Positions 9,355 through 59,451 of a DNA stretch of 64,000 nt are shown piece by piece. The translations under genes were made by a program, and so were the position numbers. The notes below the pieces were generated by a model. That model did no database searches. It was not told where the DNA came from and saw nothing but the letters and a program-made list of their open reading frames with translations. Position 1 is the stretch's first letter; each line of letters begins with the position of its first letter. Source of the DNA: Tractidigestivibacter montrealensis (GTDB taxonomy: Bacteria; Actinomycetota; Coriobacteriia; Coriobacteriales; Atopobiaceae); contig NZ_JANSKA010000001.1 in NCBI RefSeq assembly GCF_024741235.1, positions 186,001 through 250,000 on the forward strand, in the 5' to 3' direction.

Positions 9355-10890
9355 TTACTTGCCCTCCTTGGAACGTGCGGTTTGAATCATGCGGTTGATG
9401 GCGTTGACGTAGGCCTTTGCGCTGGAGACCACGATGTCGTTGTCGGCGCCGCGGCCGGTGTAGACTCTGCCGTCCTCGGCCGTGATGCGCACCGTGACTT
9501 CGCCGATGGCGTCGATGCCGCGGGTGATGGCCTTGACCGAGAACTCCGCGAGGTCGCCGTGGACGGCAACCACCTGGTCGACGGCCTTGTAGGCGGCATC
9601 GACGGGACCGGTGCCGGTGGCGCAGACCACGTGCCTCACGCCCAACTCGTCCGTGATGGTAGCCGTGGCGGTGGGCACCAGCGGATCGCCGCAGGAGACC
9701 TGCAGGGCATCCAGGGTGTAGACGGCCGCAACCTCGCGCTGACGCTCCTGGACAATGGACTCCAGGTCCTCGTCGTAGACTTCCTTCTTCTGATCCGCGA
9801 CCTCGAGGAAGCGCTTGTAGATGTCGTCGTACTCCTCGGCGGAGAAGGTGTAGCCCAGCTCGGCAAGACGGTGCTTGAGGGCTGCGTGGCCGGAGCGCGC
9901 GGAGAGGATGATCTCGGAGCCTGCGGCACCAACGTCCTCGGGGTTGATGATTTCGTAGGTGTCGCGTGCCTTGAGCACGCCGTCCTGGTGGATGCCGGAG
10001 CTGTGCGCGAACGCGTTGGCGCCCACGATGGCCTTGTTTGCCTGCACGTTCATGCCGGTGATGCGGCTCACCAGGTGGCTCGAGCGCGTGAGCTCGCGGG
10101 TGTTGACGTCGGTGTAGGCGTCAAGCTCGTCACCGTGCATCTTGATGGCCATGACGACTTCCTCGAGCGCGGTGTTGCCGGCGCGCTCGCCCAGGCCGTT
10201 GATGGTGCACTCGATCTGCGTTGCGCCGTTCTTGACGCCGGCCAGCGCAAGCGCGGTTGCCATGCCCAGGTCGTTGTGGGTGTGGACGCTGATGGTGACG
10301 TTCTCGATGCCGCGGACGTTGTCTGCCAGGCCCTTGATGCGGGCGCCAAAGTCATCCGGCATCTGGTAGCCGGTGGTGTCCGGGATGTTCACCACGGTGG
10401 CGCCGGCGTCGACGGCGGCCTGGATCACGCGCTCCAGGAACTTCTGGTCTGCGCGGCCGGCGTCCTCGGCGTAGAACTCCACGTCATCGACGTACTGCTT
10501 GGCGTACTTCACGCAGTGGATGGCGCGCTCGACGCACTCGTCCTCGGAGATGCGGAGCTTCTCGCGCAGGTGCTGCGGCGAGACGCCCAGGCCGGTGTGG
10601 ATGCGCGGGCGCTTGGCGGTCTTCAGCGCCTCGGCCGCGCGGTCGATGTCTTTGTCAACGGCGCGCGTGAGGCCAACCACCACGGCGTCGTCGCCGGCGA
10701 GGCGTCCGATCTCCTGCACCGAGCGGAAGTCGCCCGGGGAGGAGATGGGGAAGCCTGCCTCGATGACGTCCACGTGCAGGCGCAGCAGCTGCTGGGCGAT
10801 GACGAGCTTCTCCTCGGTGTTCATGGACGCGCCGGGCGACTGCTCACCGTCGCGAAGGGTGGTGTCGAAGATGGCGATCTTGCGGGTCAT
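9355..10890 (-). CDS. leuA: 2-isopropylmalate synthase
   Basis: Condenses acetyl-CoA with 2-oxoisovalerate, the committed and leucine-inhibited step. The 511-residue protein starts [20 protein letters not shown], the standard catalytic N-terminus with the metal-binding Asp. HTHNDLGMA follows near residue 205, and a C-terminal LeuA allosteric domain starts at about 380. I chose the ATG at 10890, with GGAGGT six bases upstream; an in-frame extension into the leader is discarded. It is the first structural gene of the operon and lies behind a leucine-rich leader peptide and a hairpin, so attenuation by leucyl-tRNA supply is likely. Confidence 0.95.
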
Positions 10891-10962
10891 TGCTACCTCC
10901 ATTGGATATGGACCCAGTGACTGGTACCAGGTTGCCTTGGGATGGTGGCATGACACACGACA

Positions 10963-11123: not shown

Positions 11124-11368
11124 GTTCCCTCCCCTCTTGGCCGAGGCTGCTGACTGCAGCCGGTGTTGATTACTGTGGCACAGCGACATGGAACGGACGC
11201 CGGAGTTTTGCGAGCGGTAGCCGAACGGAAACATTGCAGGGATACCTCCTGGACAACGTCTCGGCCTGTCTCCACCTCACAGGGGTGTTCGTTCTCAGCA
11301 CCCCCCAGATCCATCTCCAACATTGCCACATTCAGAAGGCTCCAAAGACATGGGGAAGATCAACCTCT
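11124..11368. other. Upstream region of the leu operon
   Basis: About 245 bases without a convincing gene. It must contain the leu promoter, but no clear TATAAT/TTGACA pair was seen on the minus strand. No T-box core was found. Confidence 0.4.
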
Positions 11369-11616
11369 GCATAAAAATGCTCTATCGGACGGCGTTTTCG
11401 AAACTTCAGCATAAAAGTGCTCTATCGGACGGTGCTTTCGTTCGCTCACCATCAATCTTTTTACTAAGATTGCATATGTATGCATATTTTTTTAGTAATT
11501 GTCTAATTTTTGCATATGCATTTTCGGAATTGATATAGCTTCGTCAACAGCACCGTCCGATAGAGCGCTTTTGTGCAGCGGATGCGATTTTTCTGTCCGA
11601 TAGAGCACTTTTGTGT
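11369..11616. repeat. 248-bp nested inverted repeat element, copy A
   Basis: Two direct 40-bp-spaced units containing GCTCTATCGGAC (TCTATCGGAC at 11381-11390 and 11421-11430) face two inverted units (GTCCGATAGAGC from 11555 and from 11595, again 40 apart). The arms enclose an AT-rich core of 124 bases (11431-11554) with CATATGTATG and ATATGCA elements. The whole forms a long imperfect palindrome centred at 11492.5. Copy B at 47945-48192 has the same spacing. No gene is inside. The remaining 181 bases up to the next gene show nothing recognisable. Confidence 0.75.
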
Positions 11617-11797
11617 ATCCAGCCATCTCTACGGCAGACGGACTCAGCACAAGAACGGCACCTAACTTTTGAGTCCCATAGATTTCGATGACAAAATAAT
11701 CAGAGCAGTGACAAATACTGCAACAATCCAAAGGAGCTATCTCTATCATTCCTGAAGTTTACTCAGGAATTTCAGAACGGGAGTGCGAGGAGAGGCA

Positions 11798-12664
11798 ATG
11801 GGCGAGGTTTACGTTGTTACTGGCGGAGGCTCGGGGATTGGCCGCGCGGTGGCAGAGACACTGCCCAAGGAGGCAACCGTTGTCATCACAGGCCGCACGA
11901 TGGCAAAGCTGCAGCGCACGGCCGACGCACTCAATGCCAATGGCCACCACGTGGTACCTTTCACGTGCGACGTTTCAAATCGCACCGAAGTTCGCTCCCT
12001 CGCCCAGCGCACGGCAAAACTAGGCCAAGTCACCAAGGTAATTCACTCAGCAGGCATCTCGGGATCCATGGCAGACGCCGAGAAGATCGTGCGCATCAAC
12101 GCCCTGGGCACGGTCTATGTGAACCAGGAGTTCTACAAGGTGATGGACGGCGGCGTGATCGTCGACGTGGCCTCCAACTCGGGCTACATGCTGCCTGGCG
12201 CGATGGTTCCGCGCCGCGCCTTCCCCCTCGCCCTCACTAACGAGGACGCCTTCGTAAAGCGCCTCGTCCGCCGTGCATCTCTCATGCACAACAAGGACGT
12301 AGACCCACAGATGGCCTACATGATCTCGAAGAACTTCGCACGCTGGTACGCTGCAGGCTGCGCCTTCAAGTACATGCGCCGTCGAGGTATCCGCGTGCTC
12401 TCAGTAAGTCCTGGCTACGTTGAGACCCCCATGACTGAGAAGGAAAAAGGCAAGGCAACAGATATTCTGCTTTCCTACTCCGGCCCAGGACGTGGCGCCA
12501 AGTCCGAAGAACAGACTTTTCTCATCGTGAGCCTCGCCGACGAGCGCTGCGGCTACCTCATGGGCACCGATGTCCTCTGCGATGCCGGCTGTGTAAACGC
12601 TGGCTATGGCCTCACCGTGGCAACAAACGAGAAGAAGCATCCCTCCGCAGACGGCCTCTGGTAG
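11798..12664 (+). CDS. Short-chain dehydrogenase/reductase (SDR)
   Basis: A 288-residue Rossmann-fold oxidoreductase. The cofactor loop TGGGSGIGRA is at about 9-18, with the catalytic pair in YMISK (Y-x3-K) near 174-178, an upstream serine in the VASNSG segment, and a SPGYVETPM motif after it. Arg near 37 (TGRT) suggests NADP(H) preference, which is inference. The substrate is unknown; some hydroxysteroid dehydrogenases of gut Coriobacteriia look similar, but nothing here proves that. I chose ATG 11798, with AGGAG upstream. It is a single gene, with the repeat element (copy A) in its upstream region. Confidence 0.85.
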   Translation: MGEVYVVTGGGSGIGRAVAETLPKEATVVITGRTMAKLQRTADALNANGHHVVPFTCDVSNRTEVRSLAQRTAKLGQVTKVIHSAGISGSMADAEKIVRINALGTVYVNQEFYKVMDGGVIVDVASNSGYMLPGAMVPRRAFPLALTNEDAFVKRLVRRASLMHNKDVDPQMAYMISKNFARWYAAGCAFKYMRRRGIRVLSVSPGYVETPMTEKEKGKATDILLSYSGPGRGAKSEEQTFLIVSLADERCGYLMGTDVLCDAGCVNAGYGLTVATNEKKHPSADGLW

Positions 12665-18931: not shown

Positions 18932-19014
18932 TAGCTCCCTTTCTTAAAACCGGTGCTCGTTACCTGCGGAAACGCAACGGCAGTTTAAGAAAAGGAGCTA
19001 TTCTCTGCAGAGAA
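18932..19014. repeat. Hairpin repeat family 2, copy 2
   Basis: Arms at 18932-18950 and 18982-19000 (AGGAGCTA end, about 16 of 19 paired) flank a loop with ACCTGCGGAAACGCAACGG. A perfect 14-bp palindrome, TTCTCTGCAGAGAA, follows at 19001-19014. The rest of 18528-19075 shows no gene. Confidence 0.6.
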
Positions 19015-28749: not shown

Positions 28750-30021
28750 ATGAATCGGGAAACGGTAACCGCGCACAGCAAGAATCTTGGCAAGGACATG
28801 AGCGTCCGCGTCTATGGTGAGTCCGGATGGCCCATCGTCGCTTTTCCCATCCAGGATGCGATGAGCGACTCCTACGAGCAGTTCGGCATGGTCGACGCCA
28901 TGAAGGACTACATCGAGGGCGGCAAGGTCCAGCTCTTTGTCCTCGACTCCGTCGACGCCGAGGGTTGGTCCGACCGCGGCGGTGACAACGTGCTGCGCGT
29001 CAAGGTGATTGAGGCGTTCTACAACTACGTATGCGAGGAGGTCGTCCCCTTCGTTCACGAGCGCAACGGCTCTGACCTGCGCCCGCTCACGATGGGCTGC
29101 TCGCTTGGCGCAACGCACGCCCTTGTCGCCTTCCTGCGCCGCCCGGACCTCTTCCAGGGCGTCATCGCGCTCTCCGGCGGATACGACGCGCAGTTCTTCT
29201 TTGGCGACTGGATGAACACCACCCTGTACTTCAACTCCCCCGTTCACTTCCTGCCCAACACCCCGCACGACCACCCCTACATCGACCTCTACAACAGGCG
29301 CGAGATCGCCCTGTGCTGCGGCCAGGGCGCTTGGGAGGAAGAGGGCCTGCGCACCGAGCACATCGTGGACGACGCCTTCCGTGCGCTGGGCGTGAACGCC
29401 TGGTGCGACTACTGGGGAACCGACGTGGACCACGACTGGCCCTGGTGGCAGAAGCAGGTCCAGTACTTCCTCCCCTACGTGTTGGACGAGGCCGAGAAGT
29501 ACCACGCCGAGGAGGTTGCCGAGACCGCAAAGAACGCGCCGGCCAAGCCCGTGACCGCCAAGAAGCCCGCGGGAACCAAGGCCACGCGCACGTCTCGCGC
29601 GAAGGCACCTGCTGCGAAGAAGGCCACGCCTGCAGCAAAGGCCGCACCTGCGGCAAAGGCGGCTCCCGCGGCAAAGGCCGCACCTGCGGCAAAGTCCGCG
29701 CCTGCGGCAAAGGCAGCTCCCGCGGCAAAGGCCAAGGCCGCAGCCAAGGCCGCAGCCAAGGCCGAGCCCGCACCCAAGGCCGCAGCCAAGGCCGAGCCCG
29801 CACCCAAGGCCGCACCCAAGGCCGAGCCCGCAGCCAAGCCCGCACCCAAGGCCGCACCGGTAGCCAAGCCTGCGTCCAAGGCTGAACCCGCCAAGAAGCC
29901 GGCGGCCGCCGAGAAGCCCGCTGCAAAGCCCGCCACGGCCCCCAAGGCACCTGCAAAGAAGGTCGCGCCCGCAAAGCCCGCTGCAAAGAAGACGAAGCGC
30001 ACCCGCAAGTCGACCCGCTAG
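28750..30021 (+). CDS. Esterase-like alpha/beta hydrolase with lysine/alanine-rich H1-like tail
   Basis: A 423-residue protein in two parts. Residues 1 to about 255 resemble the esterase family of alpha/beta hydrolases, with a nucleophile elbow GCSLGA at about 117-122 and a late acid/His region (CDYWGTDVDHDW). Residues about 262-423 are an almost pure Ala-Lys-Pro-Glu tail made of PAAKA and AEPAPKA repeats, ending in KKTKRTRKSTR. Such tails bind DNA in bacterial histone-H1-like proteins and in some HU/topoisomerase tails. The tail DNA is itself repetitive (29570-30010). ATG 28750 follows GAGGGGAGCGG. No signal peptide is seen. Role unknown; DNA, RNA or polyanion tethering is inference. Confidence 0.8.
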   Translation: MNRETVTAHSKNLGKDMSVRVYGESGWPIVAFPIQDAMSDSYEQFGMVDAMKDYIEGGKVQLFVLDSVDAEGWSDRGGDNVLRVKVIEAFYNYVCEEVVPFVHERNGSDLRPLTMGCSLGATHALVAFLRRPDLFQGVIALSGGYDAQFFFGDWMNTTLYFNSPVHFLPNTPHDHPYIDLYNRREIALCCGQGAWEEEGLRTEHIVDDAFRALGVNAWCDYWGTDVDHDWPWWQKQVQYFLPYVLDEAEKYHAEEVAETAKNAPAKPVTAKKPAGTKATRTSRAKAPAAKKATPAAKAAPAAKAAPAAKAAPAAKSAPAAKAAPAAKAKAAAKAAAKAEPAPKAAAKAEPAPKAAPKAEPAAKPAPKAAPVAKPASKAEPAKKPAAAEKPAAKPATAPKAPAKKVAPAKPAAKKTKRTRKSTR

Positions 30022-30078: not shown

Positions 30079-30136
30079 CTCGTATGCCTCGTTGTTCTCG
30101 CCCCTGGCCCCAACGACCGTACATGGAGCTCTCCCC

Positions 30137-30220
30137 GCAGAGAATAGCTCCATTTCTTAAACCGATTACGGCGACCTGCGGAAACGCGGCGGGCGTTTAA
30201 GAAAAGGAGCTATTCTCTGC
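30137..30220. repeat. Hairpin repeat family 2, copy 3 (best copy)
   Basis: Arms of 26 bases (30137-30162 and 30195-30220; GCAGAGAATAGCTCC outer part) pair at 25 of 26 positions around a 32-base loop with GACCTGCGGAAACGC. Located between the convergent H1-tail gene and the last gene of the acyl-transfer operon. Confidence 0.7.
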
Positions 30221-30303
30221 AAAATGGCCTGTGGCACGCGGTCATCTCGTACGGGATTGCCGCGGCAACGGCCCCTCCGGCTTTGCAGGGTGCCCACGGC
30301 GTC

Positions 30304-31704
30304 CTAGTGCGCCGAGCTCCACATGCAGTAGCGCTCGAAGTCCGCGCTGGACCCCACCTGCCGCGTGTTCACTCGCACCGTAAGGCTCCCGTCCGCCGGA
30401 ACCGCGCACGTCACCGTTGCGTCGCTGCTCCAGTCGCGCAGCACGCCCGTCACGTTACCGCCCGCGTCGCACAGGCAGAACTGATACTCCACCTGCACGT
30501 TCGTTCCCGTGTACGGCGTAGCGCAAAGCGTCGCCATCCCATCCTCGACGCTTCCGTCAAGCGTCACCGCCGAGATGTAGTCGATTGACGCCAGGTACTC
30601 GGACCAGTCGTCATACGAGTAGGACAGCCCCGAGACGTCCTCGCCAGCATCAGGGCGCCCCAGGTAATCCGCAAGCTTTGCCGAGAAGCCCTCCGCGCCG
30701 GTGGCATTAAGGTGCTCGCCATCGGCAAAGTCCTCTGCCGTCGGCGCGTAATAGCTGGCCTTGAGGAGGTTCGCGTCGAGATACACGCCACCCCCGGACT
30801 CGACCGCGTCGCGCATCCGCGCCATCTGCTCCGGGTACTTCTCGCCGTAGCACAGCACGTTGAAGGCAGGCCGCGGCGTGGCCACCACCACAAGCTGCAC
30901 GTCGTTCTCGCGGCAGAGGTCGACGATCTTCTGGAGCGTCGCCATGTTCGCATCGGTGAAGTCGGCAATCCCATGCTGGGTGGGAGACATTGCCTCCCTG
31001 GCCTTGCTCGTATCCAGCTGGTAGCTGTAGTTGCCGTACCCCTTGCCTACGTAGGTCCAGGCAGAGTCGCGGACCTCCGCCGCCTCGATGGTGGTTGTTC
31101 CGTCAAGGCGCATGCGCACGTTGTCCGCAATCGACCCAACCCCGCCCTTCACGTGCGCAAGGGTCCAAGGGAAGAGAACCTCCAGGAACTTCGTTGTGGA
31201 GGGGAATCCAGGCATCGTGAGCAGCCAGGCGTAGTCCCCAATCGCCTTGGGCAGCGACTCGTGGGCAGCCTTTGCCTGAACAAAGGTGACGGTGCCCTTG
31301 TCCCAGGGGTCAAGCGACATGGTCTCGTAGTCCACTCCCATGATCACCCGGCGAACATGGTGGCTGGAGATCGCCTCGCTCACAGACAGGTAGGTGTTCT
31401 CGATCGGCTGGGCCGGCGTCGCGAGCGAGAAGGTGCTCGTGCCCAGCGCACCGTCAAGCACGTTGGGATCGATGCAGCGCTGGCCAGTCGATGATCCAAC
31501 GATCACGGTGTCGATGTCCTGATTGGCTGCCGCAGCGTACTCGGACCACACGACTTCGCTCGTGGAGCCAAAGGGAAAGAGCGCGTAGACGAGAAGCACG
31601 TCCAGGCCAACCACAATGCCAAAGATGACCAGGGTCTCAACGACGCGGCGCAGCACGCTCCGCGGCCGCTTGGGGGTGCCATTATCCGCCCTTCTCGATG
31701 TCAC
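30304..31704 (-). CDS. DltD/AlgX-like SGNH-fold membrane-anchored protein 1
   Basis: A 466-residue protein with one N-terminal membrane anchor (about 21-43) and an extracytoplasmic SGNH-type domain. The nucleophile motif is VGSSTGQR (Ser at 71-72) and the Asp/His motif is DGEHLNATGA near 314. A beta-rich C-terminal domain of about 110 residues follows. It starts with GTG at 31704 behind GGAGGAGG. It is the last gene of the eight-gene operon and is paralogous to the SGNH genes at 31758 and 37801. In Dlt and polysaccharide acetylation systems such proteins act with MBOAT proteins in the final acyl transfer outside the membrane. Confidence 0.82.
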   Translation of the reverse strand: MTSRRADNGTPKRPRSVLRRVVETLVIFGIVVGLDVLLVYALFPFGSTSEVVWSEYAAAANQDIDTVIVGSSTGQRCIDPNVLDGALGTSTFSLATPAQPIENTYLSVSEAISSHHVRRVIMGVDYETMSLDPWDKGTVTFVQAKAAHESLPKAIGDYAWLLTMPGFPSTTKFLEVLFPWTLAHVKGGVGSIADNVRMRLDGTTTIEAAEVRDSAWTYVGKGYGNYSYQLDTSKAREAMSPTQHGIADFTDANMATLQKIVDLCRENDVQLVVVATPRPAFNVLCYGEKYPEQMARMRDAVESGGGVYLDANLLKASYYAPTAEDFADGEHLNATGAEGFSAKLADYLGRPDAGEDVSGLSYSYDDWSEYLASIDYISAVTLDGSVEDGMATLCATPYTGTNVQVEYQFCLCDAGGNVTGVLRDWSSDATVTCAVPADGSLTVRVNTRQVGSSADFERYCMWSSAH

Positions 31705-31757
31705 TAGATGCCTCCTCCGGCACGTACAGACAGCACAGGCAACAGTCGTCAGCGCAG

Positions 31758-33164
31758 CTAGTGTGGCAGCTCCTGCACGCAGTAGCGCTCGTAGTCCGAA
31801 GCCGAGCCCACCTGCCGCGCGCAGACCATAACCGTACCGTGCGACCCACGGGGCACGTCGCAGCTGTCCGAGCTGCTCCAGTCCTGGAGGACCGTCGTGC
31901 CGCCATCCTTGTCAACCAACAGGAACCGGTACTCCACCTGGACGTCTGTGCCGGTGTAGGTCTGCGCTGTGACCGTCGCGGAGCCTCCCCCGTCCACGTC
32001 GAGGCGCGACACCACGGCAGAGATCTGGTGAATCGAGGCCAGGTACTGGTCCCAGTTGTCATAGGAGTACGAGAGGGTCCCCACGTCCTGCCCCGCGTCA
32101 AGAGCCTGGAGCACCCCTGCGAACGCCTGCGAGAAGCGCGTGGCGCCGTCGCGGTTGAGGTGCTCGCCATCGCCAAAGTCGGCGTCCTGAGGGCTGTACG
32201 TCTCGGCATGCAGCAGGTTGGCGTCCACAAAGGTGGCGCCTTCCTGCTCCGTCACCTGCTGCAGGAGCGCCATCTGCTCCGGATACTTCTCGCCGTAGAC
32301 AAGCACGTTGAACGCCGGGCGCGGCGTCACCACCACAACGAGCTGCACGCCGTGCTCGCGGCAGAGCCGGGCGATGGAGGCCACCTGGTCAAGGCAGGTC
32401 TCCTTGAAGTCGTCCAGACCATGGATGGCAACAGAGGTGTCCTTTCTCGCCAGGGAGTAGTCGATGACGTTATCGTAGTTGCCGTAGCCGTTGCCATAGT
32501 AGGTCCAGCCGCCGTTCACGACCGCCGCCGCCTCTAGCGTGCTGTCACCGCTCAGGCGCTCGCGCACGTTTGCCACAACGCTTCCGGGGTCGAGCTTCAC
32601 GTGGTTGTAGCCCCACGGGAAGAGCGCGCACAGCGAGTCCGCCCGCCCAAAGAAGGCGGGGCTCACAAGCAGCTTCCAGTAGTCTGCCACGGCCTGGGAA
32701 AGCGACTCGCCGTCCATCTTGGCGCGGGCGAAGGCAACATGCGAGCCTGCCCAGTTTTCGTTCGAGAGGGACTCGTAGTCCACGCCCAGAATCACGCGAC
32801 GCACGTGGTGGTCCTCGATGGCCTGCTTTGCCGCCGTGTAGGAGTCGTCGAGCGGCTGAGCGGGCGTGGCCATTGAGAAGGTGGTTGTGCCCAGCGTCGC
32901 GTCCAAGACGGCAGGGTCAAAGGCGCGCTGCGCCGTGGAGGAGCCCACCACAACGGTGTCGATGCTCTCCCCTGCCGCCGCGCGGTACTCGCTCCACATG
33001 ACGCTCGAGAGCGACCCGTACTGCTCGAGGGCAAACGAGCAGAGCGCGTCTACCGCAACGATAACGGCAAGCACGACGAGCGTCTCCACGACCTTCCTGC
33101 GCCAGCTGCGAGGAGCGGCGTCACGCGTTTCCCCGCCGGAGCGCCTCCCCCTAGAAGTTGGCAT
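31758..33164 (-). CDS. DltD/AlgX-like SGNH-fold membrane-anchored protein 2
   Basis: A 468-residue paralogue of the neighbouring SGNH proteins. N-terminal cytoplasmic basic stretch, membrane anchor at about 25-47, VGSSTAQR nucleophile motif, DGEHLNRDGA near 315, and a beta-rich C-terminus. I chose the ATG at 33164, preceded by GGGGGG, which overlaps the end of the MBOAT gene by 14 bases; longer in-frame starts lie inside the MBOAT gene without ribosome sites. The identical overlap recurs between MBOAT2 and SGNH3, which shows that the pair was duplicated as a unit. Confidence 0.82.
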   Translation of the reverse strand: MPTSRGRRSGGETRDAAPRSWRRKVVETLVVLAVIVAVDALCSFALEQYGSLSSVMWSEYRAAAGESIDTVVVGSSTAQRAFDPAVLDATLGTTTFSMATPAQPLDDSYTAAKQAIEDHHVRRVILGVDYESLSNENWAGSHVAFARAKMDGESLSQAVADYWKLLVSPAFFGRADSLCALFPWGYNHVKLDPGSVVANVRERLSGDSTLEAAAVVNGGWTYYGNGYGNYDNVIDYSLARKDTSVAIHGLDDFKETCLDQVASIARLCREHGVQLVVVVTPRPAFNVLVYGEKYPEQMALLQQVTEQEGATFVDANLLHAETYSPQDADFGDGEHLNRDGATRFSQAFAGVLQALDAGQDVGTLSYSYDNWDQYLASIHQISAVVSRLDVDGGGSATVTAQTYTGTDVQVEYRFLLVDKDGGTTVLQDWSSSDSCDVPRGSHGTVMVCARQVGSASDYERYCVQELPH

Positions 33165-34734
33165 ACATGAACCCCCCGGCAGCGTTCTGGGTGAGGAAGC
33201 TCGTGATGACGATGAGGCCAAGGACTGCAGAGTAGAACAGGCCGCGCACCACGCAGTTCCATCTCAGGATGTGCCCATCGACGTCCACGTCATTCTCCTG
33301 CAGGAGGCTCACGACAAAGACGAAGGCGCAGGCCACTGCCGTGAAGACCATGAACTTAAGGTCAGAGTCCCGCACGCCCACCTGCGCAAGCCACAGGAAG
33401 AACTGCTGGGGCGCAAAGTTGGTGAGGGTGTTGCGCAGGCAGAGCAGGCTGTCGCCGAAGTCGTAGATGCGGTCGAAGTACCAGCCCACGTTGACCACCA
33501 GGAAGGTGCGCGCGACGCAGAGGACGCGGTGGGCGCGCGAGCCCGTGTCCACGCGCAGGGCGGCGTTCGCGCGGCGGAAGGCCGGGGCCAGCAGGTCCGC
33601 CAGCGCGATCACGACGCCGTTGTAGAGGCCCCAGGCGACGTAGTGGGGCTCCGCCCCGTGCCAGAGGCCGACGATCAGGAACACGAGGAGGTTGGCCACG
33701 CAGGCGGGCAGGGTCCGGCCCAGGTGCTCGCCCAGGCGGGAGGCCCTGGCGCCGAGCGCACGCATGGGGCGCGAGACCGCGAACGGGAAGAACACGTAGT
33801 CGCGCATCCAGGTGCCCAGGGTGATGTGCCAGCGGCGCCAGAAGTCGGCGAGGGAGACCGAGAAGTACGGGCGGCGGAAGTTCTCGGCCATGTCCACGCC
33901 GAAGAGCGAGGAGGCGGCCTCCACCATGTCTATGCCGCCGGAGAAGTCGCCGTACTGCTGGGCCGAGTAGAGCAGGATGCCGAAGACCACCACGCTGCCG
34001 GGGATATCGGGCGTCACGTTGGAGAAGATCTTGTCGATGGTGCCAACGAGCATGTTGGCAATCGCGTACTTCTTGAGCGCGCCGTAACCAAAGCGCAAGA
34101 GCGACCGCCGGACGGGCACGCCCTTGGCGGAGTGTCCCTCAAGCAGCTGGGGACCAAGGTCGGCGTACCTGTTGATGGGCCCCTGGATGACCTGCGGGAA
34201 CCAGGACACGAAGAGCAGGTGCTTGAGGAAGTTCCCCTGCGGCTCGAAGCGGCCGTTGTAGGCGTCCACCACGTAGGAGACGGACTGGAAGGTGTAGAAG
34301 GAGATGCCCAGGGGGAGCAGCAGCCCCAGGCTGGTCGGGGACGCCGCCAGCCCCACCTCGTAGAGCAGCACGTTCCAGTACTTGAGGTAGGCCAGTATCC
34401 CGAAGCATGCGAGGAGCGCGGCCACCAGCACCGCCCTGCGGCGCCTGGCCCAGGCGGCCTTCACGGCCCTCCTCGCGGCGCGGTCGGGCGCGGCGGCGCG
34501 CTCCTCCTTGCAGCGGGCGTCCATGCGCGCGAGCGCGAGGGGGGCCGCCCAGGTGACGGCGGCGCAGGCAAGCATGTAGGCAAGCGTCTGCCACCTTCCC
34601 ACCAGGCAGTAGAAGGCCAGGCTCGCGGCGAGCAGGACCAGCCACTGCACGCGAGAACAAATGCGGCCTACCAGGTAGTAGGCCGCAAGCGACACCGCAA
34701 GGAACAGAACGAACGAAAGTGAGAGTAGATCCAA
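33151..34734 (-). CDS. MBOAT family membrane O-acyltransferase 1 (DltB/AlgI-like)
   Basis: An integral membrane protein of 527 residues with about ten or more hydrophobic helices. The MBOAT signatures are DFWRRWHITLGTWMRDYVFFPF (His 303) and VGLWHGAEPHYVAWGLYNG (catalytic His 359). In Dlt systems DltB takes the aminoacyl group from the carrier protein and passes it across the membrane; AlgI does the same with acetyl groups. The start is TTG at 34734, behind AGGAG, ten bases after the carrier protein stop. Long blocks (about 33-195 and 240-430) are nearly identical to MBOAT2 at protein and DNA level, while the ends and 196-235 differ, as expected from gene conversion. Confidence 0.88.
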   Translation of the reverse strand: MDLLSLSFVLFLAVSLAAYYLVGRICSRVQWLVLLAASLAFYCLVGRWQTLAYMLACAAVTWAAPLALARMDARCKEERAAAPDRAARRAVKAAWARRRRAVLVAALLACFGILAYLKYWNVLLYEVGLAASPTSLGLLLPLGISFYTFQSVSYVVDAYNGRFEPQGNFLKHLLFVSWFPQVIQGPINRYADLGPQLLEGHSAKGVPVRRSLLRFGYGALKKYAIANMLVGTIDKIFSNVTPDIPGSVVVFGILLYSAQQYGDFSGGIDMVEAASSLFGVDMAENFRRPYFSVSLADFWRRWHITLGTWMRDYVFFPFAVSRPMRALGARASRLGEHLGRTLPACVANLLVFLIVGLWHGAEPHYVAWGLYNGVVIALADLLAPAFRRANAALRVDTGSRAHRVLCVARTFLVVNVGWYFDRIYDFGDSLLCLRNTLTNFAPQQFFLWLAQVGVRDSDLKFMVFTAVACAFVFVVSLLQENDVDVDGHILRWNCVVRGLFYSAVLGLIVITSFLTQNAAGGFMYANF

Positions 34735-34744
34735 GAGTCGGCTC

Positions 34745-34996
34745 CTAGCCCTCCTCGTCCACCAGGCGCTTCACCATGTCGAGCATTGCCTGGGCGCTGT
34801 TGAAGTTGTCAGGGACAATGTCCTTGGCAGGCACCGAGACGTCAAACTCGTCGTTGATGGAGCTAATAATGGAGAGGATGTCGAAGGAATCCAGCACGCG
34901 GTCGTCCACAAGCGTGGTGCAGTTCTCGTAGTCGACGTTACCCTTGACATCCTCAAGCAGCTCAATCATGTGGTCGAGCGTCAAATCGTCATCCAT
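34745..34996 (-). CDS. Acyl/aminoacyl carrier protein (DltC/BtrI-like)
   Basis: An 83-residue acidic helical protein with the phosphopantetheine site LDSFDI, Ser 37. The length and the LDSF form resemble DltC (D-alanyl carrier protein) as well as stand-alone carriers such as BtrI. I chose ATG 34996 after GGAGGT; an in-frame extension has no carrier similarity. It lies between the decarboxylase and MBOAT1, 74 bases after the decarboxylase. It is the likely carrier for the amino acid activated by the ligase in this operon. Confidence 0.9.
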   Translation of the reverse strand: MDDDLTLDHMIELLEDVKGNVDYENCTTLVDDRVLDSFDILSIISSINDEFDVSVPAKDIVPDNFNSAQAMLDMVKRLVDEEG

Positions 34997-35070
34997 GGCT
35001 ACCTCCAAAATGTCCAGCACATTTCGTCGATTTCGATAAGAGACTATCGCAGTATGCACGCGCGTAATGC

Positions 35071-36258
35071 CTAGCAGCAGTTGTTCTGCCAAGTCTCCAT
35101 GGGCTCGCGCACAACGCGCACCCCGCGGCCATCGCGCAGGGCAACAGCGGGCATGGTCCTGCTCAGGAACAGGTAGATGCCCTCGGTCACCGAGTACGCG
35201 CCAATGTTCTCGAAGGCGAGAAGGTCGCCCACCCGCAGGTCTGCGAAGGGCGCCTTGCGCACAAGCACGTCAGCCGTGGTGCAGAGGCTCCCGCAGAGCG
35301 CCCAGTCACGGGCCTCGCCCGCCGCCTCCCCAGACCGCACGCGCTCGTCGTGCGAGAGGTTGCGGATCCGCGGCTCCTTCATGCCCATCATCTGGCCAAA
35401 GTAGGTCACGTGGTTCATGCCGCCATCGATGAAGGCGTAGCTCGTGTCCTCGTTGTCCTTCTCGTCCACCACGCGCGCCAGGTAGTAGCCGCACTCGGTT
35501 GCCAGGAAGCGGCCCATCTCAACCTGCAGCTCCACGCGGTCGGCCATGGCTGCAAGCCCGGGCGCAATGTCGCGTGCGGGGGCAAGCGTGTCCGAGAAGT
35601 CCTGGCCCTCGAAGAGCGGCACCGCGAGGCCGGGGCCGTACTCCAGGCGCTGCGCGCGCCATCCGTGGTCGCGGCGCAGCTCGTCGATGAGCTCGGCGAG
35701 CATGGCCAGCTCCCGCTGCTGCCACTTGAGCTTGGCGCGCTGGGTGCCCACAAAGTAGTGGATGCCCACCAGCTCGCAGCCGGCAAGCTCGTCTCGGTGG
35801 TCAACGGCGTGGACGAGGTCCTCTCGGCTCATGCCAAACTGGCTGCCACCGTTCAGGCGCAGGAGCGTGGGCACGCGCACGCCGGCAGCGGCGGCCTCGG
35901 CGTCCACCAGGGCCAGCTGCCCCAGCGACTCGGCCGTGAAGGTGCCCGCGCCAAAGCGCAGGGCCTCGCGCACGTCCTTGGCCTGCTTGCACACGCCGGA
36001 GTAGACGATGCGCGCGGGGTCCACGCCGTCGCGCTCGCAGATGGCCAGCTCGCCGGGGCTACAGACCTCAAGCGCGTAGCCATGCGCCAAGGCCGTGGGA
36101 ACCAGGAAGGGGTTTGCCTTAATCGAGTAGCAGAGGTCGACCTTGGGCCCCCAGATCTCTCGCACGGCGTCCAGGCGAGCGCCAAAGGTCTGCGTATCGA
36201 AGACGTAGGTTGGCGTGCCCAGCTCGGTTGCGCAGGCGAGAAGCTCCTCGTTGGTCAT
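35071..36258 (-). CDS. Type III PLP-dependent decarboxylase (BtrK/DAP-decarboxylase-like)
   Basis: A 395-residue fold-type III PLP enzyme (alanine racemase/ornithine-DAP decarboxylase superfamily). PLP lysine 47 lies in YSIKANP, GIHYFVGTQ (near 166) replaces the DAP decarboxylase GLHxHxGS, and EMGRFL near 247 replaces EPGR. CGSLCTTADVL carries Cys 326 and Asp 330, matching the CESxD catalytic motif of decarboxylases. ATG 36258 follows GGGAGGT, two bases after the ligase stop. Since it sits between a ligase and a carrier protein, I infer that it decarboxylates a carrier-bound amino acid, as BtrK does for glutamyl-BtrI in butirosin synthesis. It could instead act on a free amino acid. Confidence 0.85.
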   Translation of the reverse strand: MTNEELLACATELGTPTYVFDTQTFGARLDAVREIWGPKVDLCYSIKANPFLVPTALAHGYALEVCSPGELAICERDGVDPARIVYSGVCKQAKDVREALRFGAGTFTAESLGQLALVDAEAAAAGVRVPTLLRLNGGSQFGMSREDLVHAVDHRDELAGCELVGIHYFVGTQRAKLKWQQRELAMLAELIDELRRDHGWRAQRLEYGPGLAVPLFEGQDFSDTLAPARDIAPGLAAMADRVELQVEMGRFLATECGYYLARVVDEKDNEDTSYAFIDGGMNHVTYFGQMMGMKEPRIRNLSHDERVRSGEAAGEARDWALCGSLCTTADVLVRKAPFADLRVGDLLAFENIGAYSVTEGIYLFLSRTMPAVALRDGRGVRVVREPMETWQNNCC

Positions 36259-36260
36259 GA

Positions 36261-37772
36261 CTACCTCCCCATTCCGTCGAGCGCCTTGCGGTCGATCTTG
36301 CCGTTCTTGGTGAGCGGCATCTGGTCCACGCGGCGCACATGGTTGGGCTCCATGTAGGGCGGAAGCACCGCCGCAAGGGCGTCTGCCAGGCCCTTCTCGT
36401 CGATGGTGCCCACGTAGTAGAGGCGGATGCGCTTACGGCGCTGGTCGTAGGTGCAGCAGGCGCGATCCACGCCGTCCGTGGCCTGCGCGGCCGCCTCGAT
36501 GTCTCCCAGCTCGATGCGCTGGCCCATGTGCTTGATCTGGAAGTCCTTGCGCGACGAGTACACCAGGTTGCCATCCTGGTCGTACGTCGCCAGGTCTCCG
36601 GTGCGGTAGATGGGCTCGAGCCAGCGGCCATTGAGCGGGTTCTGCGTGAACGCCGCGGCGGTGCGCTCGGGGTCTCCCAGGTAGCCCAGCCCCAGCGCCG
36701 TGCCCGAGACGCAGACCTCGCCCTCCACGCCCGGGGCCGTGACCTCCTGGTTGTTCTCGTCCAGAAGAAAGACGCGCTCGTTGGGGAAGGCCTTACCCAT
36801 GGGGATGACCTCGTGCTTGCCAAACTCGCGATCAACCACGTAATACGTGCAGTTGCAGGTAATCTCGGTGGGGCCATAGAGGTTCACGTAGGTGGCGTCT
36901 GGCAGGTAGCGGCGCCACACGGCCAGCTGCTTGGGCGGCATGACCTCGCCCGAGAAGAGCACGCGGCGCACCGTTGTGGGCACGCGGTAGTCGAAGCCGT
37001 TCATGATCGAGACGAAGCACATGGCCGAGACCGCCCAGATGAGGGTTGTGACCTGGGAGTCCGCCAGGTAGTCCATGAGCTTGGTGGGCTGCGTGAAGTA
37101 CTCGCGCGGCACTAGCTGCAGCCGGGCGCCGCAGCGCAGTGCCGAATAGATGTCCTTCACCGAGACGTCAAAGTCGAAGGGCGCCTGGTTGGCAATCACG
37201 TCGCTCTCACCAATGCCAAAGAGCTGGTCAAAGGTGGGAATGAAGTCGATGACCGAGCGGTGCGAGACAACCACGCCCTTGGGCGTGCCCGTGCTGCCGC
37301 TCGTGAAGTTCACGTAGAGCGGGTCCACGTCCAGCGCCTGGGCGCGCCTGCGTGCTAGAAGCTCCTCGTCCACGGGACCGTCCACGATGTCCTCGATGCG
37401 CGCGATCTTGATACCCGTGGCGCCGAGAAGCTCCTGGGCGCGCGCGGCGTTCGCGGCGTCGGTGAGCACGCAGGAGGGAGCAAGCGCGTCGACGATGGCG
37501 TGGACGCGGCCCTCCGGCTGACGGATGTCGATCACCGAGTAGAACCCGCCCGCATAGACGGCGCCCAGCATGCAGGCAAGCGCACCGCAGCTCTTCTCGA
37601 GGAAGAGCGCCACCGCCTGGCGGGGCTGGGTGCGCGCCGCAAGCCACGTGCCGGCTGCCTGGGCCTCTCGGCGCAGCTCGCCGTAGGTGAGGCTCGAGTA
37701 TGGGTCCGCCACGGCAACGCGCTCCGGCGTCGCCACGGCCGTGGCCTCGAGCCACTCGATTACGTTTCTCAT
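36261..37772 (-). CDS. Amino acid adenylation ligase (DltA-like)
   Basis: A 503-residue AMP-forming ligase that should activate an amino acid and load it on the carrier. Adenylation core motifs: TSGSTGTPKG at 157-166, FDFDVSVKDIY at 200-209 with Asp 202 in the position that contacts the substrate amino group, NLYGPTEIT at 297-305, YRTGDL at 389-394, GQRIELGDIE at 417-426, and the catalytic Lys 492 in NGKIDRKAL. Length and the IELGDIE form are close to DltA. I chose ATG 37772 behind GGGAAGGAAG; upstream frame belongs to the SGNH3 antisense. The substrate cannot be read with certainty: D-Ala is not assured, and glutamate is a candidate from the decarboxylase context. Confidence 0.88.
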   Translation of the reverse strand: MRNVIEWLEATAVATPERVAVADPYSSLTYGELRREAQAAGTWLAARTQPRQAVALFLEKSCGALACMLGAVYAGGFYSVIDIRQPEGRVHAIVDALAPSCVLTDAANAARAQELLGATGIKIARIEDIVDGPVDEELLARRRAQALDVDPLYVNFTSGSTGTPKGVVVSHRSVIDFIPTFDQLFGIGESDVIANQAPFDFDVSVKDIYSALRCGARLQLVPREYFTQPTKLMDYLADSQVTTLIWAVSAMCFVSIMNGFDYRVPTTVRRVLFSGEVMPPKQLAVWRRYLPDATYVNLYGPTEITCNCTYYVVDREFGKHEVIPMGKAFPNERVFLLDENNQEVTAPGVEGEVCVSGTALGLGYLGDPERTAAAFTQNPLNGRWLEPIYRTGDLATYDQDGNLVYSSRKDFQIKHMGQRIELGDIEAAAQATDGVDRACCTYDQRRKRIRLYYVGTIDEKGLADALAAVLPPYMEPNHVRRVDQMPLTKNGKIDRKALDGMGR

Positions 37773-37800
37773 GTCCGCTTCCTTCCCTGAGCCAGGAAAC

Positions 37801-39255
37801 CTAGCCCGAAATGTCCTGCATGCAGTAGCGCTCGTAGCCCACGGTCGTGCCCGCCCGGCGCACGCAGACCTCCACCTGTGACGAGCCCTCGGAGATCTTG
37901 TCTTGCGGGATGGTACAGCTGTCGGAGCTGCTCCAGTCCTGGATGACCGTCGTGCTGCCATCCTCTGCCACAAGCGAGAAGCGATACTCCACCGGCACGT
38001 TGGACCCGGTGTAGGCAATGGCCTCGACAACGGTGTCGTTGTCCTCCTGATACGTTGTCGAGATGACCGCCGAGATATCGTCTATTGAGGCCAGATACTG
38101 GTCCCACTGGTCGTAGGAGTACGTGAGGTCCGAGGTAGAGCCGCCCGCGTCCAGCACCTGGAGCGCGCCCGCGAACGCCTGCGAGAAGCGCGTGGCACCG
38201 TCGTGGTTGAGGTGCTCGCCGTCGTAGAAGTCTTCGTCGCGCGGCTCGTACCAGCCGCCCTTGGCAAGGTTGGCGTCGAGGAAGGTGCCGCCGGCCTGCT
38301 CGACCACCTGCTGGAGGCGCGACATCTGCTCGGGGTACTTCTCGCCGTAGACAAGCACGTTGAACGCCGGACGTGGCGTCACCACAACCACGAGCTGCAC
38401 GCCGTGCTCGCGGCAGAGGTCGCAGATGTTCTGGATCCAGTCGAGGCCCTGCTGGTCAAAGTCAGCCGGTCCATCCTCCGTCACCGAAAGGTGGTCGCGC
38501 GCCGTTGAGTAGTCGAGCACGCCGTCGTAGTTGCCGTAGCCGTTGCCATAGTAGGTCCAGCCGTCCATGACGCGCTCTGCCGCCTGGACGGGCGCAGTGC
38601 CGCTCACGCGGTCGTTGAAGTTGGTCGCGATGTGCTCGGCGTCAAGCTCCACGTGATTGTAGCCCCACGGGAAGAGCGCACAGATGGAGTCTGCCCCATC
38701 GAAGAACGAGGAGCTGGTGAGGAGCTGCCAGTAGTCGGCCACGGCCTGCGGGAATGACTCCCCCGCCATCTTGGCGCGGGCAAAGGCCACGTGCGAGCCC
38801 GGCCACTTGACCGTGGAGATGGACTCGTAGTCAAGGGCGAGAACCACGCGCTTTACGTGGTGGTCCTCGATGGCCTGCTTTGCCGCCGTGTAGGAGTCGT
38901 CGAGCTCCTGCGCGGGGGTGGCCATGTTGAACGTGGTGGTGCCCAGGGTTGCGTCGAGGATCGAAGGGTCGAAGGAGCGCTGGCCGGTCGACGAGCCTAC
39001 AATCACGGTGTCGATGCTCTCGCCTGCCGCCGCGCGGTACTCGTCCCACATCACGTTTGCCAGCGAGCTGTAGAGCTCGAAGCCCAGGGTGATAAGGACG
39101 TTTGCGCCGATGATGAGCGCAATTATGACAACGACCTCGAGCGCGCGTTGCCAGCCGTGGCGCGGTGCGCGGGGTCTGTGGGCAGCGGGGGAGCCAGTGG
39201 GCGCGGTGACTTTGGGCTTCTCGGCCGTGCTGACCTTCTCGCTAGAAGTTGGCAT
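37801..39255 (-). CDS. DltD/AlgX-like SGNH-fold membrane-anchored protein 3
   Basis: A 484-residue paralogue of SGNH2, with a longer basic/Pro-rich cytoplasmic N-terminus, a membrane anchor at about 35-57, VGSSTGQRSFD nucleophile motif and DGEHLNHDGA. The ATG at 39255 lies inside the end of MBOAT2, a 14-base overlap with the same sequence as the MBOAT1/SGNH2 junction (MPTS start). A 28-base gap precedes the ligase. The paralogues are most alike around both catalytic motifs and least alike in the C-terminal beta-rich part, which may set acceptor preference. Confidence 0.82.
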   Translation of the reverse strand: MPTSSEKVSTAEKPKVTAPTGSPAAHRPRAPRHGWQRALEVVVIIALIIGANVLITLGFELYSSLANVMWDEYRAAAGESIDTVIVGSSTGQRSFDPSILDATLGTTTFNMATPAQELDDSYTAAKQAIEDHHVKRVVLALDYESISTVKWPGSHVAFARAKMAGESFPQAVADYWQLLTSSSFFDGADSICALFPWGYNHVELDAEHIATNFNDRVSGTAPVQAAERVMDGWTYYGNGYGNYDGVLDYSTARDHLSVTEDGPADFDQQGLDWIQNICDLCREHGVQLVVVVTPRPAFNVLVYGEKYPEQMSRLQQVVEQAGGTFLDANLAKGGWYEPRDEDFYDGEHLNHDGATRFSQAFAGALQVLDAGGSTSDLTYSYDQWDQYLASIDDISAVISTTYQEDNDTVVEAIAYTGSNVPVEYRFSLVAEDGSTTVIQDWSSSDSCTIPQDKISEGSSQVEVCVRRAGTTVGYERYCMQDISG

Positions 39256-40825
39256 ACATGAACCCCCCGGCGACGTTCTGGGTGAGGAAGCTCGTGATGA
39301 CAATGAGGCCAAGGACGAGGAAGTAGAGGGCGGCTCGCGCCACGCAGTTCCAGCCAAGGATGCGCTCGGACACGTCCACGCCGCGCTCCTGCGCGAGGCT
39401 CACCACAAAGACGATGAGGCAGGCAAACGCGGCAAATACCAGGAACTGCAGGTCGAGCATCGTGAGGCCGTCCTCGTTCAGCGTGACGAGAAACGCACCG
39501 GCGTCGAAGTTGGTGAACGTGTTGCGCAGGCAGAGCAGGCTGTCGCCGAAGTCGTAGATGCGGTCGAAGTACCAGCCCACGTTGACCACCAGGAAGGTGC
39601 GCGCGACGCAGAAGACGCGGTGCGCGCGGCCCTCCGTGTCCACGCGCAGGGCCTCGTTCGCGCGGCGGAAGGCCGGGGCGAGGAGGTCCGCCAGCGCGAT
39701 CACGACGCCGTTGTAGAGGCCCCAGGCCACGTAGTGGGGCTCCGCCCCGTGCCAGAGGCCGACGATCAGGAACACGAGGAGGTTGGCCACGCAGGCGGGC
39801 AGGGTCCGGCCCAGGTGCTCGCCCAGGCGGGAGGCCCTGGCGCCGAGCGCGCGCATGGGGCGCGAGACCGCGAACGGGAAGAACACGTAGTCGCGCATCC
39901 AGGTGCCCAGGGTGATGTGCCAGCGGCGCCAGAAGTCGGCGAGGGAGACCGAGAAGTACGGGCGGCGGAAGTTCTCGGCCATGTCCACGCCGAAGAGCGA
40001 GGAGGCCGCCTCCACCATGTCTATGCCTCCGGAGAAGTCGCCGTACTGCTGCGCCGAGTAGAGCAGGATGCCGAAGACCACCACGCTGCCGGGGATGCCC
40101 GTGGTGACGTTTGAGAAGATGGCCTCGATGACCCCCACCAGCATGTTCGCGATGGCAATCTTCTTCAGGGCGCCATAGCAAAAGCGCAGGATGGCGCGGT
40201 CATAACGAACCGAGCGCGCCTCGTGGTACTCCAGGAGCTGCGGGGAGAGCTGCGCGTACCTGTTGATGGGCCCCTGGATGACCTGCGGGAACCAGGAGAC
40301 GAAGAGCAGGTGCTTGAGGAAGTTCCCCTGCGGCTCGAAGCGGCCGTTGTAGGCGTCCACCACGTAGGAGACCGACTGGAAGGTGTAGAAGGAGATGCCC
40401 AGGGGCAGCAGCAGCCCCAGGCTGGTCGGGGACGCCGCCAGCCCCACCTCGTAGAGCAGCACGTTCCAGTACTTGAGGTAGGCCAGTATCCCGAAGCAGG
40501 CGAGGAGCGCGGCCACCAGCACCGCCCTGCGGCGCCCCGCCCAGGCGGCCTTCACGGCCCTGCGCGCCGCGCGGTCGGGGGCTGCGGCGCGCTCCTCCTT
40601 GCAGCGGGCGTCCATGCGCGCGAGCGCGAGGGGCGCCGCCCAGGTCACGGCGGCGCAGGCCAGCATGTAGGCGAGCGTCTGCCACCTGCCCACCAGGCAG
40701 TAGAAGGCCAGGCTCGCGGCGAGCAGGACGAGCCAGGCATACTTGCGCGCAAAGTGCCCCACCACATGGTAGGCAGCAAGAGATGCTGCAAGGAACAGCA
40801 GGAAATGCAGCGAGAACAGTTCCAA
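39242..40825 (-). CDS. MBOAT family membrane O-acyltransferase 2 (DltB/AlgI-like)
   Basis: First gene of the eight-gene operon; 527 residues, the same length as MBOAT1, with the same FWRRWHITLGTW and GLWHGAEPHYVAWGLYNG motifs. It also starts with TTG (40825), behind GGGAGA. The N-terminal 30 residues, about 196-235 and the last 100 residues differ from MBOAT1, while the rest is almost identical even at silent positions. Two MBOAT proteins with separate SGNH partners suggest either two acceptors or two acyl donors handled by one operon. Confidence 0.88.
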   Translation of the reverse strand: MELFSLHFLLFLAASLAAYHVVGHFARKYAWLVLLAASLAFYCLVGRWQTLAYMLACAAVTWAAPLALARMDARCKEERAAAPDRAARRAVKAAWAGRRRAVLVAALLACFGILAYLKYWNVLLYEVGLAASPTSLGLLLPLGISFYTFQSVSYVVDAYNGRFEPQGNFLKHLLFVSWFPQVIQGPINRYAQLSPQLLEYHEARSVRYDRAILRFCYGALKKIAIANMLVGVIEAIFSNVTTGIPGSVVVFGILLYSAQQYGDFSGGIDMVEAASSLFGVDMAENFRRPYFSVSLADFWRRWHITLGTWMRDYVFFPFAVSRPMRALGARASRLGEHLGRTLPACVANLLVFLIVGLWHGAEPHYVAWGLYNGVVIALADLLAPAFRRANEALRVDTEGRAHRVFCVARTFLVVNVGWYFDRIYDFGDSLLCLRNTFTNFDAGAFLVTLNEDGLTMLDLQFLVFAAFACLIVFVVSLAQERGVDVSERILGWNCVARAALYFLVLGLIVITSFLTQNVAGGFMYANF

Positions 40826-47193: not shown

Positions 47194-47910
47194 ATGCACG
47201 TGGCCCACGACGACAACATACCCTGCCAGCAGTGCGAGGGCTGCGGCTTCAAAGCGGCAAACGGCACCTGCGTGAACAGGATTCGCCTGTTCGCGGGCCT
47301 GCCCGACAACGCGAAGCACGATCTTCTCGCCCGCTCGGTTCGTTCCACCCACCGGCGCGGGGACATCCTGGTGCACGAGGGCGACCCCATCGACTCAGTC
47401 CTTATCGTACGGTCTGGGCGAATCAAAACCTTCCGCATCGACCCCGACGGCGTGGAGTACGTACTCGACGTGCTGCACGATGGACAGGCAATCTGGCACG
47501 GAATGTTCCTCGAGGACAACGTCTACCACTACTCCGTAGGCTGCCTTACCCGCGTTGAGCTGTGCTCCATTCACCGTACGGACTTCGAGGCCATGCTCTC
47601 GGAGCACCCCGACGCCGCCATGGGACTCATCCGCATGGTGTGCACCGAGCTGGATGACGCGGAAGAAAAGGCCATGATGCTGGGCATTCGCGACCCGCGG
47701 CGACGCGTGGCGCAGTACCTGCTGCTTCGTGACGAGCGCTGCATGGGCACCGAAATCCACCTTGGGCTGGAAGACATTGCGGCCTCGGTGGGCTTGCGGC
47801 CCGAGACCGTCTCTCGTGCGATATCCTCGCTGAGCAAGGAGGGGCTGGTCGAGCGCGTGGGCCGCGGGCGGCTGCGCATCATCGACCGCGACGGCATGCG
47901 CGGGGTGTAG
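47194..47910 (+). CDS. fnr: FNR-type oxygen-sensing transcription regulator
   Basis: A Crp/Fnr family activator of 238 residues. An N-terminal cysteine cluster (C11, C14, C17, C26) and a central C124, in the position of E. coli FNR C122, suit a [4Fe-4S] sensor. Then come a cyclic-nucleotide-like beta roll (about 30-125), a dimer helix, and a C-terminal helix-turn-helix, DIAASVGLRPETVSRAISSL. The recognition helix has the E-x-x-S-R pattern that reads TTGAT half-sites. A perfect TTGATTTCAATCAA box stands 405 bases downstream, before pflA, so it probably activates pflAB without oxygen. ATG 47194 is two bases after the cupin stop. Confidence 0.85.
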   Translation: MHVAHDDNIPCQQCEGCGFKAANGTCVNRIRLFAGLPDNAKHDLLARSVRSTHRRGDILVHEGDPIDSVLIVRSGRIKTFRIDPDGVEYVLDVLHDGQAIWHGMFLEDNVYHYSVGCLTRVELCSIHRTDFEAMLSEHPDAAMGLIRMVCTELDDAEEKAMMLGIRDPRRRVAQYLLLRDERCMGTEIHLGLEDIAASVGLRPETVSRAISSLSKEGLVERVGRGRLRIIDRDGMRGV

Positions 47911-47944
47911 CGCACGGATAGCACTGTCATCTGACAGCCGTGAC

Positions 47945-48192
47945 GCATAAAAACCGCCTATCGAACAGAATTTGGGATCAGCGTGCACAAAAATGCTCTA
48001 GCGAACCGGACCCTACGGCACCAGTAATCAATAATTGAACTACATATGTATGAAATCGCATAATTGCATAATATTTTGCATAGATATGCAAATATAGTTC
48101 AATGATTGATTTCATAGCCGAATTGCCAACGTTCGATAGAGCCATTTTGTGCAGCGGTCGCCCAAATTCTGTTCGATAAAACGTTTTTATGC
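47945..48192. repeat. 248-bp nested inverted repeat element, copy B
   Basis: Same layout as copy A at 11369-11616. Two units 40 bases apart on the left (CTATCGAAC at 47958 and CTAGCGAAC at 47998) face two inverted units 40 apart on the right (GTTCGATAG at 48131 and GTTCGATAA at 48171). The core is 124 bases (48007-48130) and AT-rich, with further nested inverted blocks (AATCAATAATTGAACT against AGTTCAATGATTGATT). The outer arms GCATAAAAAC and GTTTTTATGC are exact complements. The copy has CGAAC/GTTCG where copy A has CGGAC/GTCCG, so pairing is preserved. Confidence 0.75.
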
Positions 48193-48314
48193 GGCGCCGA
48201 TAGCATTACCAGATCAATGTCCCTCGCATAAGGCTTCCAATCTAGGGTGTCGCATATGGTGTGCACCATTTATCACCGCCGCTCCCGCAGTATTGCTCTG
48301 AAATTTCCCATTAC

Positions 48315-51499: not shown

Positions 51500-51523
51500 G
51501 TCGCCCCGATGCTGCTCGTCGCC

Positions 51524-51603
51524 CCGGTGCTGCTGAGAACTATTTCGACATTTTGGGCCGCGCGGGAGGTAAATTCCGTCGAATTTGTTCTCGGCTGCAC
51601 CGG
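51524..51603 (+). repeat. 80-bp inverted-repeat element, left copy (flanks the PTS island)
   Basis: Arms of 26 bases, beginning CCGGTGCTGCTGAGAAC and ending GTTCTCGGCTGCACCGG, pair at about 22 of 26 positions. The middle contains ATTTTGGG and GGTAAATTCC. A near-identical copy in the same orientation is at 59373-59451. The rest of the spacer to 51721 shows no gene. Confidence 0.7.
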
Positions 51604-59323: not shown

Positions 59324-59372
59324 GTCGGGAGTTACAGGCTTTCCTCGTATTAATTCAACCGGTGCTTTAACC

Positions 59373-59451
59373 GGGTGCTGCTGAGAACTATTTCGACATT
59401 TTGGGTCCCCGTGGGAGGTAAATTCCGTCGAATTTGTTCTCGGTAGCACCC
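59373..59451 (+). repeat. 80-bp inverted-repeat element, right copy (flanks the PTS island)
   Basis: GGGTGCTGCTGAGAAC at the left and GTTCTCGGTAGCACCC at the right form the arms. The interior matches the copy at 51524-51603 over nearly its whole length and has the same orientation. It ends 26 bases before the GH2 stop codon. Confidence 0.7.

Follow-up and report, generated by a model that had tools for sequence, protein, structure and literature searches.

Palindromic arrays of four units at fixed spacing in Tractidigestivibacter: candidate protein-bound intergenic elements of two types

At two places between genes, a stretch of 64,000 nucleotides from Tractidigestivibacter montrealensis (the whole of which is called the window here) carries two tandem units facing two inverted units across an AT-rich core. 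This arrangement raises the question of what such an array is: a folded nucleic acid, a former mobile element, a transcription signal or a set of sites for a protein. A first-pass annotation had described, for the first array (copy A), tandem units with an exact 40-base period and inverted arms, and we found both in the sequence. It had also given a spacing of 40, 124 and 40 for copy A and for a second array (copy B), which is correct if the 124 bases are counted between the edges of 22-base units. The motif CGGAC is indeed present in all four units of copy A, and CGAAC in all four of copy B. As had been stated, no credible gene lies inside: two ORFs, of 83 and 85 codons, only overlap the element. 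Overall, eight unit matches were found in the 64-kb window, four per copy, where shuffled sequences predict 0.08. Since the conserved unit is 25 bp long and has the T of TGCA as its first base, the edges were re-set to the better values of 11368-11617 for copy A and 47944-48193 for copy B (250 bp each). Measured between the inner edges of the 25-bp units, both copies have an AT-rich core of 120 bp.

Copy A lies between leuA (9355-10902, minus strand) and a gene of the SDR family (11783-12664, plus strand). Its outer unit 1, TGCATAAAAATGCTCTATCGGACGG, occupies 11368-11392 and its inner unit 2 occupies 11408-11432, both on the plus strand; beyond the core (11433-11552) follow the inverted units on the minus strand, namely inner unit 3 at 11553-11577 and outer unit 4 at 11593-11617. 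Within the core, ATCAA is found at 11451-11455, together with symmetrically arranged inner motifs that resemble AACTA and TGCATAT. Copy B, which belongs to a CGAAC sub-class of the same type, hereafter type I, has a Crp/FNR-like gene (47194-47910) on one side and a pfl-activase-like gene (48404-49150) on the other, both on the plus strand. Units 1 (outer, 47944-47968) and 2 (inner, 47984-48008) are on the plus strand, and units 3 (inner, 48129-48153) and 4 (outer, 48169-48193) are inverted on the minus strand. Its core (48009-48128) includes an inner palindrome, AATCAATAATTGAACTA / TAGTTCAATGATTGATT.

Other repeats were encountered in the window. Two palindromic intergenic repeats of 79 bp, 88 to 97% identical, are found at 51523-51601 and 59371-59450 (GGTGCTGCTGAGAACTATTTCGAC ... 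GTCGAATTTGTTCTCGGCNGCACC); they may belong to a REP-like family, since the genus carries Y1_Tnp genes. An intergenic segment at 61454-61574 consists of three tandem units of about 39 to 45 bp (CGCGCGATACAGGTTCGTACCCGAATGTGTAGCG) unrelated to the type I units. The intergenic repeat GTTTAAGAAAAGGAGCTATTCTCTGCA is present at 18938-19013 and 30132-30221 in direct and inverted copies, one of which forms a hairpin of 26 bp around a 32-bp loop. A large tandem gene duplication spans 30304-40825, with stretches of 95% identity at an offset of 6091 bp (33416/39507 and 34138/40229), which suggests a recently duplicated or gene-converted cluster. Finally, an ORF at 28750-30021 ends in a long Lys/Ala/Pro-rich repeat tail made of 12- and 18-bp units (29545-29988).

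Pattern searches detected type I elements in all eight genomes of the genus Tractidigestivibacter / 'Olsenella' (Atopobiaceae), and in none of 132 genomes from the rest of the family. Copy numbers of the elements range from about 5 to 23 in each genome. Of type I, 14 copies are in the host genome (G000, 2.46 Mb), A and B among them, every one a complete quad; apart from relics, no unpaired unit pair was found in the genus genomes. A scan of public genomes returned Tractidigestivibacter scatoligenes SK9K4, bacterium OL-1, Olsenella sp. kh2p3, KH3B4 and two MAGs as hosts; outside the genus it gave only three single-pair matches, in unrelated bacteria, which look like chance. In the literature searched, we found no description of these elements.

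If the spacing matters, it should be the same throughout the genomes. This test had been set beforehand, and the fixed spacing proposed from the window held: all 63 type I quads scored in the eight genus genomes keep the 40/40 periods, and their cores measure 120 or 121 bp. The profile of these 63 copies is two-fold symmetric and has sharp edges, no conserved columns being present outside position 0. The 25-bp unit is TGCAYAAAANNGCTCTATCGRACGG, whose first column is T (C in some copies), and the inner motifs are ATCAA, AACTA and TGNATATTT. On the half-element map, TGCAYAAAANNGCTCTATCGRACGG stands at 0 and again at 40, ATCAA at 83, AACTA at 94, T-CA at 103 and TG-ATATTT at 113; the symmetry axis is at 125. 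Across the 63 copies, motif columns carry 1 to 2 bits of information and spacer columns are near-random (about 0 to 0.3 bits). Orthologous loci are common to up to six species. One type I copy (L124, G002:C2:460783-461044) has three tandem units on its right side, two of its 40-bp repeats being identical; its third unit is a fresh duplication in register.

A second type of element has the same architecture. The type II unit, TGCRYCGAASTGCCCTTCGTTACAC, is also 25 bp long and recurs with a 40-bp period (39 to 41 in a few copies), two units facing two across a core of about 113 bp, for a total of 243 to 245 bp in the part of the copies that was fetched. It can be aligned in register with the type I unit (TGCAY..AA..GC.CT.....AC) and is likewise limited to the genus. 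Locus A is occupied by type II in three genomes (G002, G007 and G003) and locus B in four (G001, G002, G004 and G007), the intergenic regions being about as long as those of the window and without sequence similarity to them. At four loci where both flanks match (A, B, phoU/nadA and a fourth), the type differs between species, some having I and others II; at least one further locus shows the exchange with a match on one flank only. At locus A of G006 (L240, about 290-570), direct repeats GGCGAGAAACCCGGGTCGTGCGTACGCATAACCCCCA are found where other species have type I or II. When the fetched sequence was scanned generically, with any motif and any period from 30 to 60 allowed for the paired tandem units, only the period of 40 and only types I and II came out. 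Applied to 600 kb drawn from four further genera of Atopobiaceae, the scan gave runs of N and otherwise no such geometry with any motif; as a control, in 546 kb of G002 it recovered all four elements already known there.

The motif and spacing of resident copies are under purifying selection in place. Among 35 ortholog pairs, where motif columns were taken from other loci, divergence was 5.7% in motifs and 25.3% in spacers, with unchanged geometry. Within loci, spacers change 4.4 times faster than motifs; these statistics treat orthologs conservatively and are not computed on a tree. Individual copies have nonetheless been deleted in some species, so that no single copy is essential. At the metK locus, G004 retains unit 1 and the last dozen bases, while G002 and G007 have neither the element nor the flanking sequence; at the L300 locus, the host genome retains only the first part of one type II unit. 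These losses are ragged deletions, and no precise excision was found. In 20 close pairs, divergence of the core was about 1.6 times that of the flanks, an excess that is strong at a few loci only and is a lead towards the core as a mutation hotspot. Differences in the core and in the immediate flanks amounted to 43/116 against 20/200 for the window copy at 47944-48193 compared with L144, and to 16/121 against 6/200 for L037 compared with L121.

The main rival explanation is that these are immobilised mobile elements, that is, MITE-like or domesticated non-autonomous transposons whose unit pairs were double transposase sites, moved in trans and with two specificities, the loci being insertion-permissive gaps. 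It would account for short intergenic elements without an ORF, with sharp edges and terminal inverted repeats, restricted to one genus and divided into two families with diverged ends. The elements must, moreover, once have been copied to about 40 loci, and at locus B the two types stand at different offsets from the flanking genes, which suggests separate arrivals. We nevertheless consider this explanation unlikely, because the traces of mobility do not follow. In the eight genomes, no paralogous pair has a common spacer sequence: the identity of spacers between non-orthologous copies is at chance level (mean 0.34, best 0.64), there are no near-identical copies within a genome, and therefore no recent copying has occurred within any of them. 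Neither type has a target-site duplication, as judged from the lack of excess of 2- to 9-bp flanking direct repeats (37 type I and 22 type II copies), although old duplications may have decayed. The elements had no match in the viral contigs, phages and plasmids searched, and no autonomous form with these ends was seen there or in the eight genus genomes, a search whose patterns a diverged form could escape. The scarcity of unpaired unit pairs, the ragged losses and the divergence of spacers around a motif and spacing conserved in place also argue against it. Correia elements, which have an internal IHF site (PMC10969869), and other bacterial MITEs are similar in being short, intergenic and genus-restricted, with inverted ends and no gene; the elements described here differ by the absence of target duplication, of a mobile relative and of young paralogous copies, and by purifying selection in place.

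Do the elements act on the transcription of their neighbours instead? With genes called by a simple codon-usage model, 60 type I contexts comprised 34 tandem, 18 convergent and 8 divergent gaps. According to Pfam, the elements sit between housekeeping genes of unrelated function, and neither a shared function nor an obvious DNA-binding gene was found among the flanking genes. Unrelated functions and the presence of all orientations, including convergent gaps, argue against a promoter-bound regulon. Terminators, roadblocks or repressor-bound insulators, by analogy with stoperators, could still be proposed: the sites are dispersed, mostly outside promoters and endowed with coherent specificity variants; many directly follow a stop codon or a terminator, for example after metK; and convergent contexts are frequent where divergent ones are few. 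In Cluster A mycobacteriophages, stoperators are dispersed sites for a repressor and have divergent, repressor-specific motifs; they are single, asymmetric and mostly in one orientation (PMC6550527). They resemble the present elements in that many dispersed sites serve one protein and that relatives have related motifs of different specificity. However, stoperators are phage-borne, whereas here the sites are chromosomal four-site palindromes, symmetric and of fixed geometry, absent from the viral collections searched. Given, in addition, neighbours without a shared function and no isolated unit near a putative regulator gene in the host genome, we hold such a transcriptional effect to be quite improbable.

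The first-pass annotation had put forward two readings of the four units, a base-paired structure under selection or matched binding by protein variants; the first fared badly, and the second fits both the coherence of the units and the existence of a second unit type. The case for structure had been drawn from paired changes between copies A and B, and it breaks down with copies that have mixed GG, GA and GT units. Single copies do fold far better than shuffled sequences (copy A as RNA, -107 kcal/mol, z = -11.7; copy B as DNA, z = -11.7), and this strong fold is due to the four inverted units. Yet in 37 non-redundant copies, with shuffling within genomes, left/right complementarity was at the shuffled level in the outer spacer (z = -1.2), the inner spacer (z = -0.4) and the core (z = +1.6). 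This lack of spacer covariation between the two sides of the palindrome makes it unlikely that a stem, of RNA or in a cruciform, has been selected.

The variable dinucleotide of the unit (GG, GA, TA, GT and others) behaved differently from the spacers. It was identical in all four units of 18 of the 37 copies, where 6.5 were expected (5000 shuffles, maximum 14), and the coherence was equal for palindromic partners and for tandem neighbours, between which a hairpin allows no pairing. Tandem spacers, unlike the dinucleotide, have no similarity, so that gene conversion does not explain the coherence. It fits the outcome expected from a protein reading four like sites. A weak signal of a small structural contribution comes from columns 9-13, where agreement was higher for palindromic partners (z = 3.6 and 2.2) than for non-partners (1.4 and -1.7); either symmetry of the complex or a weak effect of structure could produce this preference. 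With complementarity at the null level, no compensatory covariation of paired columns, coherence between units that do not pair, no match in Rfam and common convergent positions, it is very improbable that a long RNA hairpin or a DNA cruciform is the selected feature, in spite of the single-copy folds and the partner preference in columns 9-13.

Conserved motif and spacing with free spacers, as found here, is the pattern of multiple operator sites. Copies A and B belong to a family with one architecture and exact spacing, confined to the genus, coherent in unit specificity and interchangeable between two types at the same loci. From these sequence features, we think that they are probably protein-bound four-operator chromosomal sites of at least two specificities, which would loop or bend DNA. 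All four units would be occupied by a single oligomeric DNA-binding protein or by its variants; the coherent dinucleotide implies one specificity for the four. Each unit pair would hold an oligomer, and the exact spacing points to a defined complex. The AT-rich core, through its conserved contacts ATCAA, AACTA and TGNATATTT, might bend or wrap, and the two unit pairs would then join into a nucleoprotein loop between genes, presumably a non-directional one given the two-fold symmetry of the site.

A comparable layout is known from the plasmid centromeres parS of P1 and P7, in which arms of recognition boxes flank a bendable centre and specificity depends on one or two base pairs. Those centromeres occur once per plasmid and adjoin parAB; here there are many sites per chromosome, again with two arms of recognition boxes around a centre, and no extra gene of the ParB family. 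A search for the binding protein among the ParB family, the Y1 transposases and the flanking genes yielded none. An extra ParB/Noc-like paralogue was rejected as partner: the genus, like most of the relatives that were searched, has one conserved copy of ParB (a weak second match in G006 is the sole exception in the genus). A REP-type Y1 transposase was rejected as well: such genes occur in other genera without elements, and Y1_Tnp is absent from G006, which carries elements.

The closest dispersed chromosomal repeats to be compared are the REP/BIME sequences of enterobacteria, in which the inter-REP sequence of BIME-1 binds IHF, REPs coevolve with RAYT transposases, and a part in organising the chromosome has been proposed (PMC2817692). 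The likeness lies in dispersed, extragenic, inverted modules, bound in the case of REP/BIME by IHF and gyrase. REPs, however, are imperfect palindromes present in more than 100 copies per genome with variable inter-REP lengths, whereas the elements described here have four 25-bp units in exact period, about 5 to 23 copies and loci common across species. No Y1/RAYT transposase with a cognate REP was found for them, and Y1 transposases, unlike the elements, are not specific to the genus.

As to their role, the organisation or insulation of chromosome domains, rather than the control of adjacent genes, is a possibility that we favour only tentatively; dispersed, promoter-independent and exchangeable positions agree with it better than with a regulon. 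On a 692-kb contig of G002, only one of 23 listed elements was found where 6.5 were expected; this contig is placed near the terminus, and the contig order deduced, from the coding strand only, which flips there as it would at a terminus, and the result is a suggestive, post hoc lead that elements are sparse near the replication terminus. A more speculative and rather doubtful extension would be a genus-wide 'address' system, in which DNA-binding proteins of one family, their specificities diverging into two or more, would read four-site landing pads kept by selection, pads of alternative specificity substituting for each other across species.

Dispersed protein-binding chromosomal elements are a known kind, and we rate the fixed architecture together with two interchangeable specificities as unusual. 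Dispersed repeats in bacteria are for the most part mobile debris; in this family, exact geometry is kept in 63 type I copies from eight species while the intervening sequence is free. The 25-bp unit, the 40-bp period and the symmetric core provide a computational signature for searches elsewhere. If the protein is found, the genus would be a compact natural setting in which to study looping or insulation at the scale of the chromosome, as well as the coevolution of a DNA-binding protein with its many sites.
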